Shown one piece after another: positions 32,028 to 42,994 of a stretch of DNA of 64,000 nt; position 1 is the stretch's first letter, and each line of letters opens with the position of its first letter. This stretch comes from Opitutales bacterium (lineage in GTDB: Bacteria > Verrucomicrobiota > Verrucomicrobiia > Opitutales > Opitutaceae). Location of the stretch: contig JABITN010000157.1 in NCBI GenBank assembly GCA_018700525.1, positions 1-64,000 on the forward strand, given 5' to 3'. The notes beneath the pieces are model-generated. The model saw only the letters and a program-made list of their open reading frames with translations. It ran no database searches and had not been told where the DNA came from. A program made the position numbers and the translations under genes.

Positions 32028-32696
32028 CTATTGGAAATAGGAATTTAATTCTTCAGCAGTCCATGGATCGCGGCTGCCAATTTCGCCACGCACTCCGGCA
32101 ACGTCATCCTTGGTCACTTCGCTACTTTCATTACCCCAATTCTTGCGAATGAACGTAACTAAGCCTGCTATTTCCTGATCCTTGAGACCACCATAAGCAG
32201 CCATGTTGCCATTGTACTCGGAGCCCTTTACAGTAACCGGTCCAACGAGACCCGATAAGAGAACCTTCGTAGTTAAAGTCGAATCTTCGATCTTCACGTA
32301 TTCCGAACCGGCGAGCGGTGGAAACTGTCCAGGAAGGCCTTCCCCATTCGCTTGATGACAACCAACACAAGCCATCGTAGTGTAAAGCTTCTCTCCGATC
32401 GCGTAATAGTCATAAACGATCGGCCCTCTAGGGCGTTCGAGCCAATCATTATACAAAGCAATATCCGTACGCTCGTGAAGATACATCTGAGGGTTTTGCT
32501 CACCCATGTAACGGCGTTGGTAAAACCAGCCGAAAATGAATACGATGATCAATGCAAACGCAGTAGTAAACAGTACCGGTGATGCCACGAAAAACGGTTC
32601 GCGACGAATACGCGTGTGCGTCTTGAGGATGCTCTCGTCACTAGCGAGGCCTTCGTCTACTCCCGAAATAGTGTGATTTTGTAATTCGTCACTCAT
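32028..32696 (-). CDS. membrane-anchored monoheme cytochrome c (CcoP-like position)
   Basis: An electron carrier on the outer face of the cytoplasmic membrane. The 222-residue protein has one N-terminal transmembrane helix (about 37-58) and one heme c site CVGCH (110-114), followed by NGEGLPGQFPPLAGSEY and a likely axial Met in YNGNMAAYGGL. It occupies the place of CcoP after ccoN- and ccoO-like genes but has one heme, not two. It also resembles the cytochrome c domain of caa3 oxidases. It is the last gene of the operon, one base overlapping the CcoO-like gene, and is followed by a terminator. Confidence 0.88.
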   Translation of the reverse strand: MSDELQNHTISGVDEGLASDESILKTHTRIRREPFFVASPVLFTTAFALIIVFIFGWFYQRRYMGEQNPQMYLHERTDIALYNDWLERPRGPIVYDYYAIGEKLYTTMACVGCHQANGEGLPGQFPPLAGSEYVKIEDSTLTTKVLLSGLVGPVTVKGSEYNGNMAAYGGLKDQEIAGLVTFIRKNWGNESSEVTKDDVAGVRGEIGSRDPWTAEELNSYFQ

Positions 32697-33358
32697 TACT
32701 TCGCATTCTCCAACGCTACGCTCAATTCCTCGGACATTACGTCGTTGGACTTTGGTGCTTCTTTCAGATCATAAGTCACTTTCAGACTCTTCATGTACGC
32801 AACCAAGGCTTCCGCTTTGCGCGATGGGATAACCTCGTATCCATCCGCCACAGCATATTCAGCAGGCAACTTCAAAGCGCGACTCGTCGCCTCGCCCACG
32901 ATTTCTCTCGTTTCGAAAAGAAACGGCATCGCCGGCATATTAGAACCTTTCGAAGTGATATCCGGGTTATAAAAATGAAGCATGTGCCAACTCGCATCGG
33001 TCTGCCGTTTGCCGACGTTCGAAAGATCCGGTCCCAATCGCGAATTCCCGATAAGAACTGGCGTTTCATCGAGGTAATCACGAGCAACCGACTGGCGCTC
33101 TCCCCAGCCACGTTCCAGATCGAAACCCGCTGCAACGCGCACTTGCTGCGTATGGCAAGCGATGCATCCAAATTCTTGATATACAAGTTTACCCTGCGCG
33201 GCACCGCCCTTAATTCCGATTGGCAGTCGTCCGCCTTGTTCCGCATCGAATATCGGAGACAAATGACCGGTTTCTTGAATCGGTTTATTGATTACCAAAG
33301 CCCACGTTAAGGACAGAATGATAAAGACCCCTAGAAAAATGAATGGTCCGCGATTCAT
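32696..33358 (-). CDS. CcoO-like monoheme cytochrome c
   Basis: Similar to the membrane-bound monoheme subunit (CcoO) of cbb3 oxidases. The 220-residue protein has an N-terminal membrane helix (about 5-24), heme site CIACH (65-69) followed by TQQVR, the family blocks ERGWGERQSVARDYL, IGNSRLGPDLSNVG and HMLHFYNPDI, and a likely axial Met in SNMPAMPFLF. CcoO normally passes electrons to CcoN. Here the CcoN-like partner lacks its metal ligands, so the receiver of the electrons is unclear. It overlaps the upstream CcoN-like gene by 4 bp. Confidence 0.9.
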   Translation of the reverse strand: MNRGPFIFLGVFIILSLTWALVINKPIQETGHLSPIFDAEQGGRLPIGIKGGAAQGKLVYQEFGCIACHTQQVRVAAGFDLERGWGERQSVARDYLDETPVLIGNSRLGPDLSNVGKRQTDASWHMLHFYNPDITSKGSNMPAMPFLFETREIVGEATSRALKLPAEYAVADGYEVIPSRKAEALVAYMKSLKVTYDLKEAPKSNDVMSEELSVALENAK

Positions 33359-34836
33359 GAAGCAGTGTACTCCAACTCTGGAGCCTCTTCTATAAGGCTA
33401 GTTGACGCTTCTTTTTTGGAACGCGCTGAAAGGAGCATCCAGAAAAAGGTTACATTATAGGCAATCGCTCCTACCAAAATGAACGATAGTCCCGTGGACG
33501 CTAGGAAATAGCTGCTCCGCATCGTATTCACAACTGCAAGCATATCCGCAGTGCTGCCGTTGATCAACTCTCCTTGCTGAATGCCGCCAGATATCGATCC
33601 AATGCATAGAAGAACCAAACCCATGCCATGTGCCCAGAATTGCAAATCGACCAAAGTCGGAGAAGGGAATTCCTTATTAAGCAATCGTGGCAAAATAAAG
33701 TAACTCGCTCCGGTAAAAACCATTCCTGCGAAACCGAACAATGCGAGTTGGTTTACACCCGATTCGAAAATCGAGAACTGCACGACTTCCTGAGAACCGC
33801 GCAACGCGCCGAAACTCTTGAACAACATAGTCACAATAAACGAAAGTACTCCAGCGATTAAGAAACGTGCCGATGCCGTATCCCAGATCTTGCTGAATCG
33901 ACTCAACAAACTTCCTAAAAATTGAATCGAGAACGTCGTCGTCGGAAGTAGTAGCCCGAACGTTGCGATCACTCCGACCGAAGCGACCCAAACAGGAATG
34001 GGGCCGTTAACCATTTTAGCTGTACCTGCTACGCTTGCGAAAAGAATCCAGCTCCAAAACGCTATACCCGTGTATCGGTAACCCACAACCGCGATACCCA
34101 ATGTCTTTGGAATTAAATAATAAATGGTCGCGAACGCCAGGGGAGCAATCAATAGACCGAACACATTCTCGGCATACCACGCGCTAACCAATGTCTGAAA
34201 CGCTCCTTGAGCCGGCGAGCACACCAACATGATCTGCGCCGCGCTGTAAATCCAAGCGAATGAAAAAAGAGCCGTTAAAATCCACCATTGGGAAGCGTAA
34301 GTCGTACGCTGAACGCGGGCCCGAAAAGCCATTGCACACCACAGACCAATTCCCAAAAAGGAAATGAATAAGATTGGAGCCGTGTAAGACGGAAACTCAA
34401 GCCACTTGTAAGGCAATTGATCGCCCAGTATAATACCAACCACTCCAATAACGACCGCCAAATTCCAAATCACTGTCGTAATCGTTAGAAAAACCCCTTG
34501 CTTCAATGGCGTTCCTCCAATTCTTGCCAGCAGAAAAACCGCACAACCGAGACCTGCATTGAAAAGCCATCCGTAAATGAGCGTATTCCAAAAGATCGGT
34601 TCGACCTTTCCGTAAGTCATGTACTGGCACTCCTCGATAAATCCAGGCGTATGCAATTTTATCGATGCAATCAGGCCAAAAACGGTCGCGATCAACATCC
34701 AAACAATAGATGCCTTGAAGATAGAGAGTAGCGGAAAGCGAATCGCCGCATCGATCGTGCGCTGCGCCTCGCGATTCTTCGCGTCGCCCTCGAGGTTCGA
34801 GCAAAGAGAAGAACAAAGATTGCCGATCAAATTCAT
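33355..34836 (-). CDS. CcoN-like membrane protein without heme/copper ligands
   Basis: A 493-residue polytopic membrane protein that follows the CcoN (cbb3 oxidase subunit I) pattern along most of its length. For example, TYGKVEPIFWNTLIYGW aligns with the CcoN helix that carries the heme b ligand, and SAWYAENVFGLL aligns with the helix of the first CuB His. But none of the six conserved histidines is present. The low-spin heme position is Phe/Trp (near residue 82), the CuB His is Glu223, the paired CuB histidines are Ala273-Lys274, and the heme b3/b pair region reads SIFESGVNQ (355-363). The whole protein has only two His (in KLHTP and FWAHG). It cannot be a normal oxygen reductase. It sits between the ACIII genes and the two cytochrome c genes, overlapping the CcoO-like gene. 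Family placement rests on my recall of CcoN sequences. Confidence 0.85.
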   Translation of the reverse strand: MNLIGNLCSSLCSNLEGDAKNREAQRTIDAAIRFPLLSIFKASIVWMLIATVFGLIASIKLHTPGFIEECQYMTYGKVEPIFWNTLIYGWLFNAGLGCAVFLLARIGGTPLKQGVFLTITTVIWNLAVVIGVVGIILGDQLPYKWLEFPSYTAPILFISFLGIGLWCAMAFRARVQRTTYASQWWILTALFSFAWIYSAAQIMLVCSPAQGAFQTLVSAWYAENVFGLLIAPLAFATIYYLIPKTLGIAVVGYRYTGIAFWSWILFASVAGTAKMVNGPIPVWVASVGVIATFGLLLPTTTFSIQFLGSLLSRFSKIWDTASARFLIAGVLSFIVTMLFKSFGALRGSQEVVQFSIFESGVNQLALFGFAGMVFTGASYFILPRLLNKEFPSPTLVDLQFWAHGMGLVLLCIGSISGGIQQGELINGSTADMLAVVNTMRSSYFLASTGLSFILVGAIAYNVTFFWMLLSARSKKEASTSLIEEAPELEYTAS

Positions 34837-34877
34837 TTTTGATTATCCGATTCGATAAAGAGTCTCGCTCGTCCGAA

Positions 34878-35156
34878 TTATTTCGAATTCTCCGAGACCA
34901 CCAAAGCTTTGGCTCGTTCGATAGGCAAACGAACCTTTCCTGCTGCCGCATCGATTACCGCGTAATCAGACAACTTGTCTGTGGCGGCAGCTTCATGTTC
35001 GGCAAGCGACGGACGTTCAACAGCTGGTTCGACCGTTTGGTCGTCAGAATTCAAATACGTAGCGTTCAATAGAAAATAGAAGATCAGGAACGATCCCAAG
35101 ATTGCGATTAGCGCGGGGAAGGCACTGCGTGATGGTGTTTGCGCGGTTTGGCTCAT
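34878..35156 (-). CDS. one-helix membrane protein linked to ACIII/cytochrome oxidase loci
   Basis: A 92-residue protein with one transmembrane helix (about 12-33), a variable acidic linker, and a short conserved-looking end: DYAVIDAAAGKVRLPIERAKALV. I recall the same signature (VD..AG.VR.PI..A) in small proteins next to cytochrome oxidase and SCO genes in several phyla; I know of no assigned function. It lies between actF and the CcoN-like gene with small gaps (10 and 41 bp), so it is part of the operon and probably an accessory subunit. Confidence 0.8.
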   Translation of the reverse strand: MSQTAQTPSRSAFPALIAILGSFLIFYFLLNATYLNSDDQTVEPAVERPSLAEHEAAATDKLSDYAVIDAAAGKVRLPIERAKALVVSENSK

Positions 35157-35166
35157 CGTTCGTCGA

Positions 35167-36390
35167 TTAGTGATTGTGATTCAAACATTCCTGGATGCGA
35201 GGATCGCGAATCGGAATGATCTTAGTCTTCTGAAAACTCGTCCAGTAAGCCCAGAGGAGAATCCCCCCGGCTCCAACGACTCCCGATATATACCAAATGA
35301 TATTCGTCGGATCAGAGAATAGTTGAAAAACCTCGCCGTGATCGTCTTTCAAGGACGGCAAAATATTGAAGTATCCATCGAGCAGGTTCATCGAAAGCAA
35401 CCAGCAAGCCATGAAGGTCATCGACTTGTAATTCGTCTTAAGCGGGAACTGTAACATGTAGAGGAACGGGAACAGGAAGTACCCAAAAATCAATAGCATG
35501 GAAATCGGCCACCAAAGCCCCTGCTCTCGGTCATTGTACCAAAACGTCTCTTCCGGAAGATTCGCATTCCAGATCAAGAAATACTGAGAGAAGGTAATGT
35601 AAGCCCAAAATACGGTGAAAGCGAAAGCCAAGGTTGCGACATCATGCAAATGCTTCGTATTGAGAATTCCCTTCAAAGGCCCCTTCGCTACGAGATAGGC
35701 GACGGTCAAAAGCATCACCGCGAGTGAAGCGCGCATCGCGCTAGCGAAGATCCAGACCCCGAACATGGTCGAATACCAGTGATACTCCAAACTCATGATC
35801 CAGTCGAACGCAGCAGCAGTCCAAGTAAGAGCAACCAAGATCAAACCGGCAGCAGCATGCTTACGGCTAGAGAATGTGTGCTTTGCTTCGCCGTCTTCGT
35901 CCTGAGCGAACGAATTGCGACGGAATGCCCATGCGAAATAAGACCAGATAACAAAGCAAAAGATCGCTCGCCCCCAGAAGAAACCTTCCGATAGCCACCA
36001 CGTCTTCTTTTGATAGAGAATATCGGTACCAACAGTACCGTGGCCATGTAGCGAAGCCGCATCATTCATCCATAACCAGAGAATTCCTTGGTCTTTTCCA
36101 AAGTAAGTCAAAGCGAACAGCGGAATGAACAGGATCCCCATATATGGGAGAGCCGAAATATAATGCTCCGCCTGGCGACGGACGATAACCGACCACTGAG
36201 CGTCGAATATGTGGTGAATCATCACCAAAAACAACATACCAATAGCGATCGACGTGATGAAGATCAGTCCGATCAGGTAAGACCAAGCGGCAATTTGCGT
36301 ATCAACGAAAAAACCGATCAGCGAAACTGCGAGTCCAGCCACTCCTATTAGGAGCCACTTTTTAGGATTTGGCGAAAAATCTGCGCTCAT
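35167..36390 (-). CDS. actF: alternative complex III subunit ActF
   Basis: Integral membrane subunit related to the NrfD/PsrC family, paralogous to ActC; both form the quinol-side membrane core of ACIII. The 407-residue chain has about ten hydrophobic helices and blocks typical of ActF such as VMIHHIFDAQWSVIVRRQAEH, TYFGKDQGILWLW, and DWIMSLEYHWYSTMFG, with FWAYITFSQYFLIWNANLPEE later. Position as the sixth act gene agrees. Its start overlaps actE by 4 bp. Confidence 0.93.
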   Translation of the reverse strand: MSADFSPNPKKWLLIGVAGLAVSLIGFFVDTQIAAWSYLIGLIFITSIAIGMLFLVMIHHIFDAQWSVIVRRQAEHYISALPYMGILFIPLFALTYFGKDQGILWLWMNDAASLHGHGTVGTDILYQKKTWWLSEGFFWGRAIFCFVIWSYFAWAFRRNSFAQDEDGEAKHTFSSRKHAAAGLILVALTWTAAAFDWIMSLEYHWYSTMFGVWIFASAMRASLAVMLLTVAYLVAKGPLKGILNTKHLHDVATLAFAFTVFWAYITFSQYFLIWNANLPEETFWYNDREQGLWWPISMLLIFGYFLFPFLYMLQFPLKTNYKSMTFMACWLLSMNLLDGYFNILPSLKDDHGEVFQLFSDPTNIIWYISGVVGAGGILLWAYWTSFQKTKIIPIRDPRIQECLNHNH

Positions 36391-36995
36391 AGTCCGAGCT
36401 CCTCTCTTTTAGCAGGAGTTAAATCTTTAGCGGAACCGTTCGCTGCGCGCTGCAAAGCGCGAACGTATAATACCACGTTCCAACGATCTTCGACGGAAAG
36501 ACGATCAGCGTATCCGTACATCAAACCTTTTCCGTTCTTAACCACGTCGTAAAGTTGTCCATCGGTATATTCGCTCAAACGAGCATCGGTCAAATTAGCA
36601 ACCGTCAACATACCGTACTTCTTGGTGATACCATCGCCATCGCCTGCGCCGCCGTGACAAACCGTGCAGTAAATATTGTAGCGATCCTCGCCGCGAGCAA
36701 TCGCGTCGTTATCGACTTCAATAGGAAAGCCCTTCCCGAAAGTCTCGCCGCGCTTGCCGGTCGCCAAATATTCATCCGCAATGTAAGTGCCTCGAGCAAT
36801 CGAGCCGTCCACTGGCAAACGATCCGTACGACCATCCGCAAAGAAACCGCTCTCCGCCTGCGGGTGATACTTCGGCATGCGATCCATGTCTGGAAAAACC
36901 TCAAGAGGCGGTTTGGTCGACTTGCTGCCGCGCGGACCGAGAATCGATACCATACCGACAACGCCTAGGATAAAAATTAGATATACGTAACGCAT
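36387..36995 (-). CDS. actE: alternative complex III subunit ActE, monoheme cytochrome c
   Basis: Heme c subunit of ACIII on the periplasmic side, probably one exit for electrons. The 202-residue protein has an N-terminal hydrophobic anchor or signal (3-20), blocks shared with ActE (EVFPDMDRMPKYHPQAES, GSIARGTYIADEY, GEDRYNIYCTVCHG), heme motif CTVCH and a later Met in GLMYGYADRL that may be the axial ligand. It lies between actD (5-bp gap) and actF (4-bp overlap). Confidence 0.93.
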   Translation of the reverse strand: MRYVYLIFILGVVGMVSILGPRGSKSTKPPLEVFPDMDRMPKYHPQAESGFFADGRTDRLPVDGSIARGTYIADEYLATGKRGETFGKGFPIEVDNDAIARGEDRYNIYCTVCHGGAGDGDGITKKYGMLTVANLTDARLSEYTDGQLYDVVKNGKGLMYGYADRLSVEDRWNVVLYVRALQRAANGSAKDLTPAKREELGL

Positions 36996-37000
36996 CGAAA

Positions 37001-37555
37001 TTATTCCTCCAATTCTCCAACTTCAACGGGTTCGAGATCGTTAAGAAACGCGCGGGTCTTCTCATCGTCGAATTGCGGATCTTCGTTCTCGATATACAAG
37101 AAGAACTTATCATTCGAGCTTTGCGCCACGTCCTTGTATTTAAGAACTGGATGGTGGTGTCTCGGCAGTTTATTGAGAATGAACATTCCTCCGATCGACG
37201 CGAATGCCGAGAAAAGGATGGTCAATTCGTAGGAAACCGGAAATGCGAATTGCGGACTGAAGTACGGCTTGCCGCCAACAATCAATTTGTAGCCTTCCAT
37301 AAAAGGAAGGCTCAATTCCGATCCGCCGGTGAACCAAATCATGAGCATGCCAGTCGTGAGACCGATCGTGCCGCCAACGATTGTGAATCGCCCTACTACC
37401 GAGCGCTTCAATCCCATTGCAGGGTCCATTCCGTGGATTGGGAACGGCGTAATGACGTCCCATTTCTTGAAGCCAGCATCTCTCACCTTCTCTGCCGCAT
37501 GCATGATGTCGGCAGGGGTATCGAATTTAGCGATAAGTCCGTGTTGTTTATCCAT
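37001..37555 (-). CDS. actD: alternative complex III subunit ActD
   Basis: Membrane subunit of ACIII belonging to the DUF3341 family. The 184-residue protein starts with a ferredoxin-like soluble part (GLIAKFDTPADIMHAAEKVRD, WDVITPFPIHGMDPAMGLK), followed by two membrane helices (about 60-80 and 108-128) separated by SELSLPFMEGYKLIVGGKPY, which is typical. It is located between actC and actE, the standard order. Confidence 0.93.
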   Translation of the reverse strand: MDKQHGLIAKFDTPADIMHAAEKVRDAGFKKWDVITPFPIHGMDPAMGLKRSVVGRFTIVGGTIGLTTGMLMIWFTGGSELSLPFMEGYKLIVGGKPYFSPQFAFPVSYELTILFSAFASIGGMFILNKLPRHHHPVLKYKDVAQSSNDKFFLYIENEDPQFDDEKTRAFLNDLEPVEVGELEE

Positions 37556-37578: not shown

Positions 37579-38997
37579 TTAGTGCTTGTGAGCATGTGCA
37601 TCCGCCTGCGGTGTTACGGCTTTAATTTCCGCCATCGCCATAAGTGGCAGGAAGCGAAGAAACAATAGGAAGAGGACCGAGAATACTCCGAAGGTCCCCA
37701 CATATGTGAAGATATCCACGATCGTCGGTGAAAAGTACCCCCAACTCGATGGAAGGAAGTCGCGCGTCAAAGTCGTTACAGCGATAACGAAACGTTCGAA
37801 CCACATACCGATATTAACGAAGATAGTGATAATCCAAACCAAGGCCGTGTTCTCGCGAATCTTCTTAAACCAGAAGAACTGCGGCGAAATAACGTTACAG
37901 GAAATCATGATCCAGTAAGCCCAAGCGTAGTTGCCGAAAGCGCGATTGACGAAGGCGAAGATTTCAAAGTCGTTCGCTCCATAAGCGGCAATGAAGAACT
38001 CCATTCCGTATGCGTAGCCAACCATAGTACCGGTGGCCAAGATGATCTTGGTCATGCAATCGATGTGATACTGCGTAATGAGATCGTCGAGACGGTAAAT
38101 CGCTCGAAGCGGTAACATCAGCGTCAACACCATACCGAAGCCAGAGAAAATCGCTCCCGCAACGAAGTACGGAGGGAAAATGGTCGTGTGCCAGCCTGGA
38201 AGCAAAGAGATAGCGAAGTCGAAGGATACGATCGTGTGAACTGAAAGTACCAGCGGCGTCGAAAGACCGGCCAGCAACAAGTAACACATTTCGTAGTTAC
38301 TCCACTGACGATTCGAACCGCGCCAACCCATTGCGAAAATGCCGTAGAGGAACTGGCGAATCTTCGATGTAGCTCGGTCGCGAACGCTCGCCAAATCGGG
38401 AATCAAACCGACATACCAGAATAATACCGAAACCGTTCCGTAAGTCGAAACCGCGAAAACGTCCCAAAGTAGAGCCGACTTGAAATTCGGCCAAATCGCA
38501 TTGGCATTAGGAATTGGAAACAAGAACCAGGCCATCCAAACGCGACCTACGTGGAATACCGGAAAGATACCGGCGCAAACAACCGCGAAAATAGTCATCG
38601 CTTCAGCCGCTCGATTGATCGACGTCCGCCACTTCTGCCGTAGCAAACATAGAATAGCCGAAATCAACGTACCCGCGTGCCCAATACCGATCCAGAATAC
38701 GAAGTTGACGATAGCCCAACCCCAATTAGCAGGATTAGCCAATCCCCAAACGCCGGTACCCGTTGAGACTAAATAAACCAGACCCATGACGGTGAACGAA
38801 GCCGTGCCGCAAGCGAGAACGAAACAAACCCACCACCAGGTCGGCGTTTTCTCCTCTACGATGCCACAGATCTTGTCCGTGATCCAACTAAAGCTGCGAT
38901 CGTTGTCGACGAGCGCGGGCCGTGGGATATCGACGGGATTCACCTCGTCGAGAATCGCCGGCTCAACCTCCTCTATTGATGCGTGTGCACTAGCCAT
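37579..38997 (-). CDS. actC: alternative complex III subunit ActC
   Basis: NrfD/PsrC-like integral membrane subunit that carries a quinol-binding site in ACIII. The 472-residue chain has about ten transmembrane helices with conserved blocks [55 protein letters not shown] and [20 protein letters not shown], all characteristic of ActC. The C-terminus is His-rich (DAHAHKH). Start and actB stop overlap by one base. Confidence 0.95.
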
Positions 38998-41900
38998 TAG
39001 TGTGTTCCTCCTTGCTCAGTGTGGGAATCGGGATGTGCTGCTTCATCACCGTAGTCATCGTGTGAATCGTGAGTGCCGTGCCCGCCAACGTGATGCGGGG
39101 AATCCCCCTCGTACTCCGTTGTAGAGTGCGGCTGCTCGAAATAGTCCGGCATTTCCGGATTCTGATTGCGAAGCTTGGCAAGGTAAGTAGTTCGCGGACG
39201 AGCGTTGGTGTATCCAAGAACCGCATAATTACGCTCGTTGGCTTGTAGTTCGGAAACGCGACTATGTTCATCGCTAACATCACCGAACTCGATTGCATCC
39301 ATAGAACAAACTTGCTGGCAAGCGACCTTGATCGTTCCATCGGGAATCCGGATATTGTTACTGTCCTGAGCCTTCACCTTCTGGGCAATCTTGCCCTGTT
39401 GGATACGTTGCACGCAGTAGGTGCACTTTTCCATAACGCCACGCATACGAATCGAAACATCCGGATTCTGGGCCATTTGAACGAGCTCCGGCATTCCCTT
39501 GGGAGCCAAAGGACCTTCGTAAAGGCGATCCAGCGGACGTTGCTGGTAATCCATAAAATTAAAACGACGTACCTTGTACGGGCAATTATTCGCGCAATAA
39601 CGAGTACCGATACAACGATTATAAGCCATCGTATTGAGGCCGTCTTCGTCGTGCACTGTAGCGTTAACCGGGCAAACCGTTTCGCAAGGAGCCGTTTCGC
39701 AATGCATACATGCGATTGGCTGAAGCGAAACTTGCGGGTCCTCTGGGATCGTGGACAGGTCGTTCACGTCTCCCGAAGAGAAGTAACGATCCATTCGGAT
39801 CCAATGCATCTCGCGGCCGCGGCGAACTTGGTCACGACCGACTATTGGAATATTGTTCTCGCTTTGGCAAGCAACGACACAGGCGTTACACCCAGAACAA
39901 ACGTTCAAGTCGATCGCCATACCCCACTGATGAATACCAGTGTAATCCGGATGCTTGTAAATAGATCCGCCACGTGGCGTTTCCTTGGAGCGTTGCTGGA
40001 CGGACATACCCTTTTCGTCGCCCAAAATTGGCGGCGAATGGCTTTCCATTCCCATCTTCTCCACCCATTGCGGATCCGATGCGTAATCGTCGAGATTAGA
40101 TTCGCGAATGATCGCCCGACCTTCCATCGACCAATGCTCTTGCGTATTTGCCAACTGGATAACTTCGCCAGTCAACTCGAGCTTCGCGCCCGAAACGAAC
40201 GTAGCCGATTTGGAAGTACGAATCGCATACGAGCTAAAACCAGAGTTGGTTCCGACGCGACCCGTACGAGTCCGTCCATAACCGAGCGGCAAGATGATCG
40301 AGTAATTGTCGAGACCCGGAAGGATCTGAACCCCACCCGTGATCTCACGGCCATCGATGGTCACAGTCGCTACTGGAGAATACGAACGACCATCTTTGAC
40401 GACATTCGGATTCTTGCGAGTGATCTGCAACATCGAGTCCGCGGACACGATATCGAGCTCGTTCGCCACACGTGGACTAACGAAAATCGCATTGTCCCAA
40501 GTCAACTTCGACATTGGGTCCGGACACTCCTGCAACCAGCCGTTGTTGATGTAACGACCATCGTCGACACTCGCGTCATTAGCGAATACAACTTCGAGAT
40601 CATTCAATCCAGTCGGAGCAGCGATCGCAGCAAAACCCGACATGGATTCCGCCAAACGCATACCCGAAATCAGGGAGCGCTTTGCCTTGTAGGCAGAATC
40701 GCCTAAAAACCCGTCGTGGAGAAATTTGTCGAAACCAATCCTTCCTTTCGCCCCAGCCTTTTGAAGCGTTTCGTAAACCAGGCTGTGCCCGTCCGTATTC
40801 GCTTCGCCAACGAGGCTTCCCAAAAGTTCGATTTCCGAAATGCCTTCGAAAAGCGGCATGATCATCGGTTGCTGAGCAACGACGTCTCCAGCGTAAGTCC
40901 GACCGTCACCCCAGGATTCTAGGTAGTGCGCCTGGACGAAGTGGTAATTCGATTTCTCGGACGTTTCATCGTCGTAGTAACCGAGGCGAACAACCATCTC
41001 GACCTGCGACAACTTCGAACTGAAATCAAGTTCGACCGGAGCATTGTAAACCGGATTACCACCTGAGATGATAAGCGTGTCGATCGAACCGGAATCGATT
41101 GCAGCGGCGAGGTCTTCGATGGAAGCGGATTCGTCCGCTTCGATTTCAACCAAACTAACCGTCTTACCCAAGTTGCCGAGCTTCTCATTGATAAGGAGTG
41201 CGATGCCGTGGGCTTCTTTGCTCAGCTGAGGACCCGCGTATACGAGGCTCTCACCCTTGAAATGAGCCAAGTCCGCTATGGACTTGCTAATCCACTCTTT
41301 CGTACCGGCATCCAAACCGGAAGCGAGCTTCTGAAAGATTGGCTTCAACGCATCGCCTTCGACGCCCAAATCGATTTCCAAAGCTGCTGCGGCAAGCAAT
41401 CCAGTCATTTGACTCGTCGCCAAACGCTTGCGGTGATCCGCCATCGCGCCGGTTGTGGAAAATCCGCTTTCTACGACGTAGAGGCGATTCATCTTGTCCT
41501 TGGAAGACCGAACGCGACGTCCGTCAGCGAATTGCTTGCTGAATCCGATCGCTCCCGGATTGTCACCCAGAAAATCGCCCGCAATACTCAAGATGCGTTC
41601 GGCATTCGACAAATCGTACTTAGGCTCAAGATTGGCCCCCGATACAATACTGGCAGCCGCTTTTCCGTTATCCGTCGAAATAGGCTCGTATTCCGCCCAA
41701 GTCGCTTCCGGGTTTGCTTTGAGAAACGCTTTCTTAAGGCGAAGGCGCGTTGGCGAAGATGACTTTTCGGTCAGCAACGCGACGCCTTTGCCTTTGGAGC
41801 TATCGATCGAACTCTTCAATCCGGCGACGACGTCCAATACCGCTTCTTTCGAAAGATTAGCGCCTTCTTTCGTAAAACGTGTCGAGCGATCGGGGTCGTA

Positions 41901-42341
41901 AAGCTCAAGCACGGACGCTTGTGCCTTGCCGCTCGTTCCCCCGTTGTACGCTTTATAGTCGGAATTGCCTTCTATCTTAGTCGGACGGCCAGCATGCGTT
42001 TCTACGAGAAGCGGAAGACTTTCGCCACGCAGCGAAAATGAAGTCGCGTAGTAAAGAGGTTGTCCGGGAACTTGATATTCCGGAGCCTTCGAGTGAGGCA
42101 GAATATTCGATTCCGGACGACGGCAGCCGGTGAAGCCTACTCCGCCAATAGCGAAAGATGCGGCCATGATCTTGAAGAAATGGCGACGATCGACTTCATT
42201 CATCTCCGAAGCCTCGACTCCGAATTCGCGATGTGCTTGCTCCAGAAAGTCGGGGGATTGAGACAACTCGTCAAGACTACGCCAGTAGCGCGGTCCAGTT
42301 TGCTCTGCCTTCGTGGCGGGTGTGGAATTAATCGGTTTCAT
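38997..42341 (-). CDS. actB: alternative complex III subunit ActB, iron-sulfur protein
   Basis: Large periplasmic subunit of ACIII, a fusion of a molybdopterin-oxidoreductase-like part (about 80-780) that in known ACIII lacks the cofactor, and a ferredoxin part with several Fe-S clusters (about 800-1020). The N-terminal twin-arginine signal is [20 protein letters not shown] (RR at 52-53) and is followed by a lipobox-like GFTGC with Cys73. The Fe-S ligands are in [47 protein letters not shown] and CQQVC. The 1114-residue length is typical, and the C-terminal tail is His/Asp-rich. It overlaps actA by 4 bp and actC by 1. Confidence 0.96.
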
Positions 42342-42994
42342 CGGTGGCAGCCTGTGCAGCTTTGCGGCGGGTTAACATTCCACTCTTCAACGAACTTCTT
42401 GCCGTCTTCGATCTGGCCTTTTTCGCCTCCCGGGTGAACCCAATCGAGATTGGTTACCTCGGCGATAGGGCGAAGATACTCTTCGGGATTGCGGTGACAC
42501 TCCAAGCACCAACCCATACTCATGGGTTGATCGTGCTTAACAATTTCCATCTTATTGACTTCCCCGTGACATTCTACGCAAGAGACGCCGCGGTTTACGT
42601 GAACGGAGTGATTAAAATAAACGTAGTCGGGAGTCTGGTGAACTCGCACCCATGGCAATGGTTCGCCTGAGGCGAAGCTCGCTCTGACGGGCTCGAGCAG
42701 CTCGCTGTCAGTCTTAATCATGCTATGGCAAGCCATACAGGTGCTCGAAGCAGGAATGTTAGCGTGGCCGGATTCCTCCACCTTGCTATGACAGTACCGA
42801 CAATCCAATCCGAGCTCTCCCACATGGAAACTGTGGTCGTAGGGAACAGGCTGTACCGGTTCGTAACCCACGCGAGTATAGCTAGGAGTGGCGTAATAGG
42901 TGATTCCGGAAACGACAGCTGCAGCAAGGATGAAGACAAAAACTATTATCTTCAACGGCAGCGCGTTGGACCACTTTGGGAACACATTTGACAT
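42338..42994 (-). CDS. actA: alternative complex III subunit ActA, pentaheme cytochrome c
   Basis: Multiheme electron-transfer subunit of ACIII. The 218-residue protein has an N-terminal membrane helix (about 12-32) and exactly five CxxCH motifs: CRYCH, CMACH, CVECH, CLECH and CTGCH. Between them are family blocks such as PYDHSFHVGELGLDCRYCH and FNHSVHVNRGVSCVECHG. It is the first act gene, and its stop overlaps the actB start. Confidence 0.96.
   Translation of the reverse strand: MSNVFPKWSNALPLKIIVFVFILAAAVVSGITYYATPSYTRVGYEPVQPVPYDHSFHVGELGLDCRYCHSKVEESGHANIPASSTCMACHSMIKTDSELLEPVRASFASGEPLPWVRVHQTPDYVYFNHSVHVNRGVSCVECHGEVNKMEIVKHDQPMSMGWCLECHRNPEEYLRPIAEVTNLDWVHPGGEKGQIEDGKKFVEEWNVNPPQSCTGCHR

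Follow-up and report, generated by a model that had tools for sequence, protein, structure and literature searches.

ACIII is known to form supercomplexes with aa3-type oxidases (PMC5928083, PMC8552683), and ACIII itself contains a domain, ActB1, that is molybdoenzyme-like and has no prosthetic group (PMC5928083). According to PMC8498564, a C-type oxidase occurs together with ACIII only in verrucomicrobial methanotrophs and Opitutaceae, and in Methylacidiphilum this module has been named cbb3 (PMC6688271, PMC11102522). An earlier description of a ligand-less CcoN was not found in our literature search, from which subscription journals were mostly excluded, so novelty is unproved.

Here, we analyzed a window of 64,000 nucleotides (the whole stretch of DNA under study) on contig JABITN010000157.1 of an Opitutales bacterium, in which a CcoN homologue without any haem or CuB ligand lies in an ACIII operon. 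The features of this locus, in the order of the operon, are as follows (main evidence in brackets):

42338..42994, minus strand, ActA, pentahaem cytochrome c (five CXXCH motifs)
38997..42341, minus strand, ActB, with B1 and Fe-S B2 domains (6f0k_B, E 2.4e-221)
37579..38997, minus strand, ActC, NrfD-like quinol subunit (PF03916, alignment)
37001..37555, minus strand, ActD (PF11821, 200.7 bits)
36387..36995, minus strand, ActE, monohaem cytochrome c (profile match and CXXCH)
35167..36390, minus strand, ActF (6f0k_F, E 1e-57)
34878..35156, minus strand, one-helix protein of 92 aa at the ActG position, encoded between ActF and CcoN (present in both states of the operon)
34837..34877, minus strand, gap where ligand-complete relatives have ccoS (FixS), absent here
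33355..34836, minus strand, pseudo-CcoN, a 493-aa CcoN homologue that lacks the haem and CuB ligands (sequence and predicted fold)
34591..34593, minus strand, F82 codon, in place of CcoN H60 (low-spin haem b; alignment to 3mk7)
34168..34170, minus strand, E223 codon, in place of H207 (CuB; alignment to 3mk7)
34015..34020, minus strand, A273-K274 codons, in place of H257-H258 (CuB; alignment to 3mk7)
33754..33756, minus strand, V361 codon, in place of H345 (haem b3; alignment to 3mk7)
33748..33750, minus strand, Q363 codon, in place of H347 (low-spin haem b; alignment to 3mk7)
32696..33358, minus strand, CcoO/FixO-like monohaem cytochrome c with a membrane anchor and its CXXCH at residue 65 (PF02433, 73.6 bits; 3mk7_B, E 2e-15)
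32028..32696, minus strand, monohaem cytochrome c with a membrane anchor, at the CcoP position, and its CXXCH at residue 110 (PF00034, 50 bits)

The ACIII part is complete, with pentahaem ActA, Fe-S ActB, the NrfD-like subunits ActC and ActF, ActD and monohaem ActE, and is followed by the 92-aa protein, the CcoN homologue, the CcoO-like cytochrome and the second membrane cytochrome. The same gene order was observed in nearly all gene-carrying relatives of the order, and a CcoN-like gene was present at all ActC loci of the order that lie on contigs extending far enough. The 92-aa one-helix protein gave no matches in Pfam or PDB; in the window and in relatives of both states it shares a conserved C-terminal motif (like YGWVDQxxGVVRLPIxRAMELT) and falls into no known family. 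Some lineages (L103-L105, L209, L211 and others) have an extra cytochrome c gene between ActF and CcoN.

The pseudo-CcoN gene has an ATG start and no internal stops, and its 3' end runs into the following gene, which starts at 33358; an intact, overlapping frame within an ACIII operon had been read from the letters alone, and the ORF and subunit matches bear this out. The protein matches PF00115 with 99 bits and P. stutzeri CcoN1 (3mk7) with an E value of 1.6e-14, and its scores with ccoN models (97-99 bits) are weak and far under the cut-offs. Its AlphaFold2 model (pLDDT 90, pTM 0.91) predicts the 12-helix fold of an oxidase subunit I, and Foldseek returned cbb3 CcoN as the best match among all solved structures (TM 0.87/0.92 and 2.0 A against 3mk7_A).

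The six His that are established to bind haem b, haem b3 and CuB in the cbb3 structure (3mk7 CcoN) are all replaced in the window protein (H60 by F82, H207 by E223, H257 by A273, H258 by K274, H345 by V361 and H347 by Q363), and Y251, the active-site Tyr cross-linked to a CuB His, corresponds to A267. The only two His in the 493 residues, at positions 62 and 403, are not at ligand positions. The sequence-only reading had named these replacements and the two remaining His correctly, and the alignment with the P. stutzeri structure that it had proposed places no His at any ligand position. The loss is common to all same-genus genomes with a full-length gene and is therefore not a sequencing error; local decay was also ruled out by this genus-wide conservation together with the dN/dS values given below. 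With regard to the partners, the monohaem CcoO expected of a cbb3 oxidase is present (PF02433; 3mk7_B, E 2e-15), and a dihaem CcoP is not, as the second cytochrome has a single CXXCH and scores 14.5 bits against a ccoP cut-off of 180. The CXXCH motifs of the CcoO-like protein, the second cytochrome and ActE are invariant in all checked relatives of the order, including ligand-less ones, and the five motifs of ActA are kept in all but one truncated copy.

We then compared 121 Verrucomicrobiota genomes with distinct operon CcoN proteins, most of which are MAGs. All six His were kept in 34 of them, and 87 had three or fewer (none in 30, one in 48, two in six and three in three proteins), with no protein keeping four or five. 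The sequence-only reading had proposed a search for His-less CcoN proteins in such operons of Verrucomicrobiota; its expectation that they form one conserved clade was contradicted by the ACIII trees (see below). The CuB triad is kept in none of the 87; every one of the six His survives in one or more of them, and different lineages keep different His, so that the haem-free state need not hold for every ligand-less member. For example, in L210 and L222 (G067 and G212; HNQRYH), H60 and H347 are kept and the CuB and b3 ligands are gone, and only a low-spin haem b is possibly left. The replacements are conserved within clades, such as QQRHQQ in many Opitutaceae and HSQKF(I/L) in f23, and differ among lineages with no common set; the genus of the window varies at 258 (K/S/D/E/N) and 347 (Q/Y/C/L; 3mk7 numbering). 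An ActC-led scan of named genomes found the same arrangement in Verrucomicrobiota and did not find it in the returned loci of Planctomycetota, Balneolales, Myxococcota and Acidobacteriota.

The state of the ligands is closely tracked by the maturation gene ccoS. Between ActF and CcoN, ligand-complete operons have the one-helix protein and ccoS, and the ligand-less operons examined have the one-helix protein alone. With a model built from nine ccoS of ligand-complete operons and each genome counted once, ccoS was found in 33 of 33 ligand-complete operons versus one of 86 ligand-less operons; with the partly overlapping named loci added, the numbers were 38 ligand-complete operons and one of 113 ligand-less operons (Fisher p 2e-32, indicative only, as kinship is ignored). 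The seed bias of this model toward ligand-complete operons is offset by an unbiased Pfam search giving the same pattern: PF03597 (FixS/CcoS) matches in whole genomes occurred only in ligand-complete genomes and only between ActF and CcoN. The genome of the window has no PF03597 match anywhere and no ccoS in the operon. The one exception is L060 (G044), a ligand-less operon of a lineage that keeps H345, in which a gene still matches the ccoS model (47 bits) and is likely a relic of recent loss. The gene ccoG was uninformative; where present, it was mostly located by the fused CcoNO and not by the ACIII operon.

Oxidases encoded elsewhere in these genomes are relevant to both states. G046 and G192, which are 98-99% complete, have no haem-copper oxidase besides the ligand-complete operon CcoN, and the ligand-complete form is thus likely a working oxidase. 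All ligand-less genomes with at least 90% completeness in the set surveyed contain another PF00115 protein above the cut-off. In the genome of the window, an A-type CoxA is encoded together with subunits of its own on a different contig. In several other ligand-less genomes aa3 oxidase genes directly follow the operon cytochrome, either as CoxB plus CoxA (G325, G375) or as CoxA (G096, G198, G125). Two further kinds of oxidase-like genes were also observed. A ligand-complete relative of the operon CcoN (L048, G023:C1:3327703-3329109) is part of a 999-aa frame that is not close to ACIII genes; a 1016-aa frame matching CoxA is found nearby. In addition, a very divergent PF00115-like protein (G000:C118:212-925 (L033), and pairs in G006:C799, G030:C1:4498533-4502090 and G017:C14) adjoins a normal oxidase subunit of 570-600 aa in some genomes, and is perhaps a second degenerate haem-copper oxidase subunit.

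The trees disagree on how often the ligands were lost. In the tree of CcoN alone, all ligand-less proteins of the order form one clade (99/98) with long branches. On the concatenated ActABCF tree, 11 state changes are needed, eight of which are forced by well-supported branches, and 13 are needed and 10 forced on an ACIII tree of a wider sample; if ligands are never regained, these two ACIII trees give 12 and 19 losses. A single ligand-less clade on ActB plus ActC was rejected by 946 log units (p-AU 0.0002). The numbers of losses presuppose inheritance of the operon as one unit, which is supported because the CcoN/ACIII divergence ratio is steady among ligand-complete operons. When ligand-less proteins were placed singly into a tree of ligand-complete CcoN, L053, L054, L062, L063, L066 and L242 grouped within or beside the ligand-complete proteins of the family to which they belong; most others fell outside those of their own family, matching the ACIII-tree prediction, several with low support, and the window protein was placed near the base in a position without resolution. 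Moreover, and without recourse to any tree, loss of the whole set in the last common ancestor of the ligand-less proteins is excluded, barring regain, as each of the six His is kept somewhere. Taking the ACIII trees, the AU test, the single placements and the kept His together, a single ancestral loss was rejected, and the single clade of the CcoN tree is most likely the result of long-branch attraction. Judged from these comparisons, the losses look many and independent.

Constraint on the ligand-less CcoN is relaxed, not gone. Its divergence relative to ACIII genes within the family is 2.07, compared with 0.81 for the ligand-complete form, i.e., it evolves about 2.5 times faster. The frames are open in the ligand-less operons, 50 sites reach an identity of 85% or more across 23 ligand-less representatives, and the within-genus dN/dS of the CcoN homologue is 0.05-0.10, near that of its neighbours including CcoO, with dS saturated in several pairs. 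The window protein thus combines missing catalytic residues with purifying selection, as in a pseudoenzyme, and the proposal that it is kept for a non-catalytic role and has not decayed agrees with these values. Ligand-complete homologues in sister species had been regarded as a potential sign of local decay; this does not apply, as both states occur in the family and purifying selection persists after the loss.

The explanation that we favor, with a probability of roughly 0.68, is that the window protein is a pseudo-oxidase without haem b, which keeps two c-type cytochromes attached to ACIII so that electrons can leave for other oxidases. ACIII and a functional oxidase of the cbb3 type would have been encoded together in an ancestral operon, with genes for CcoN, CcoO and a membrane cytochrome c as well as ccoS. 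The lineage of the window, and independently many others, would then have lost the haem b, haem b3 and CuB of CcoN along with the ccoS gene, with CcoN being retained as a haem-b-free 12-helix platform that keeps the haems of the CcoO-like protein and the second cytochrome c beside ACIII. Operon conservation and gene overlap suggest that these three proteins are attached to ACIII. Electrons may then travel from menaquinol via ActB, ActA and ActE to this additional pair of c haems, and from there reach a separate oxidase, which in the genome of the window would probably be the A-type (aa3). A scaffold for two cytochromes c had been suggested before, and is consistent with haem sites that are kept despite ligand loss; no evidence was found for the quinol-side role suggested along with it. 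More generally, we would put slightly better than even odds on ligand-less CcoN having become, a dozen or more independent times, a permanent subunit of ACIII in the membrane, connecting the complex to A-type oxidases via two extra c haems, in the methanotrophs as well.

Several other explanations should be weighed against the pseudo-oxidase reading. The clade-conserved replacement sets, many of them polar (QQRHQQ in many Opitutaceae, HSQKF(I/L) in f23), could mean that the old haem cavity houses a new site or a proton path for new chemistry or ion translocation; however, the sets differ from lineage to lineage without a common one, and the genus of the window is variable at 258 and 347, which makes this an unlikely although not negligible alternative. 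Slow decay, in which a redundant oxidase leaves CcoN as a passenger held by operon structure and heading for loss, fits the roughly 2.5-fold faster evolution, the deletion of ccoS and its relic in L060, but is at odds with the open frames, the low dN/dS, the 50 conserved sites, the invariant haem c sites of the partners and the fact that untruncated operons of the order are never without CcoN. Decay alone is therefore unlikely, and we consider it quite improbable as the explanation for this locus.

A different history, which could leave the function the same, would be one old ligand-less lineage into which a working CcoN and ccoS were swapped back several times. The CcoN tree, in which the ligand-less proteins of the order are united, is what this scenario would give, but the ACIII-gene trees reject it (AU p 0.0002, 10 changes forced), singly placed ligand-less proteins mostly side with the ligand-complete ones of their own family, the kept His jointly cover all six positions, L060 has a ccoS relic, and the divergence of ligand-complete CcoN keeps pace with that of ACIII (ratio about 0.8); we regard it as very doubtful. 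That the protein continues to reduce oxygen or NO by means of unusual ligands, as its fold and the CcoO partner retained in the family might imply, is scarcely credible, given that the window protein has no haem-iron or CuB ligands and only two His, both off the ligand positions, that the Tyr and ccoS are gone, and that no ligand-less protein has the CuB triad.

The pseudo-oxidase reading also bears on Methylacidiphilum. In strains SolV and Kam1 (G096 and G198; L289 and L295), the operon CcoN has S, E, S, H, F and V at the ligand positions and sits between ACIII and aa3 oxidase genes; no other CcoN-like protein below E 1e-20 was detected in either genome. A genuine CcoN elsewhere in SolV was considered and rejected, since its other PF00115 proteins are two CoxA-like proteins, two with CuA partners and one NorB; of the two with CuA partners, the one that was scanned has no ccoN match. 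Judging by its residues, the operon CcoN of both strains cannot be a cbb3 oxidase by known chemistry, and with no other CcoN-like protein detected at that threshold, the cbb3 annotation is probably wrong as to function.

It follows that an annotated cbb3 oxidase beside ACIII in Verrucomicrobiota is no proof of high-affinity oxygen respiration, a caveat that concerns published Methylacidiphilum physiology; if the permanent-subunit reading is true, it covers the methanotroph module now annotated as a high-affinity cbb3 oxidase. Repeated loss of the catalytic center with the subunit kept, tracked by loss of ccoS, offers a natural gradation between an oxidase and a structural part, which shows which part of CcoN serves assembly rather than catalysis, and makes the way in which ACIII passes electrons to its oxidase testable in cultured strains.

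Compared with the cbb3 oxidase of P. stutzeri (3mk7), the module of the window shares the predicted fold of the catalytic subunit (TM 0.87-0.92), the order of N, O and cytochrome genes and a FixO-family monohaem partner, but lacks the haem b, haem b3 and CuB ligands, the active-site Tyr and ccoS, and has a monohaem membrane cytochrome instead of the dihaem CcoP. It resembles the ACIII of R. marinus (6f0k) and F. johnsoniae (6btm) and the aa3/caa3 supercomplexes in that ActA-F are complete and downstream oxidase genes are usual, and a cofactor-free domain of a former enzyme (ActB1) is already a part of known ACIII. Unlike in 6f0k and 6btm, the downstream module is a cofactor-less core of a C-family oxidase, sometimes located between ACIII and aa3 genes. 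The cluster is the same as the ACIII-cbb3 cluster of Verrucomicrobiota whose co-location in methanotrophs and Opitutaceae has already been published (PMC8498564, PMC6688271); those papers treat the module as a cbb3 oxidase, whereas our results point to a pseudo-oxidase.
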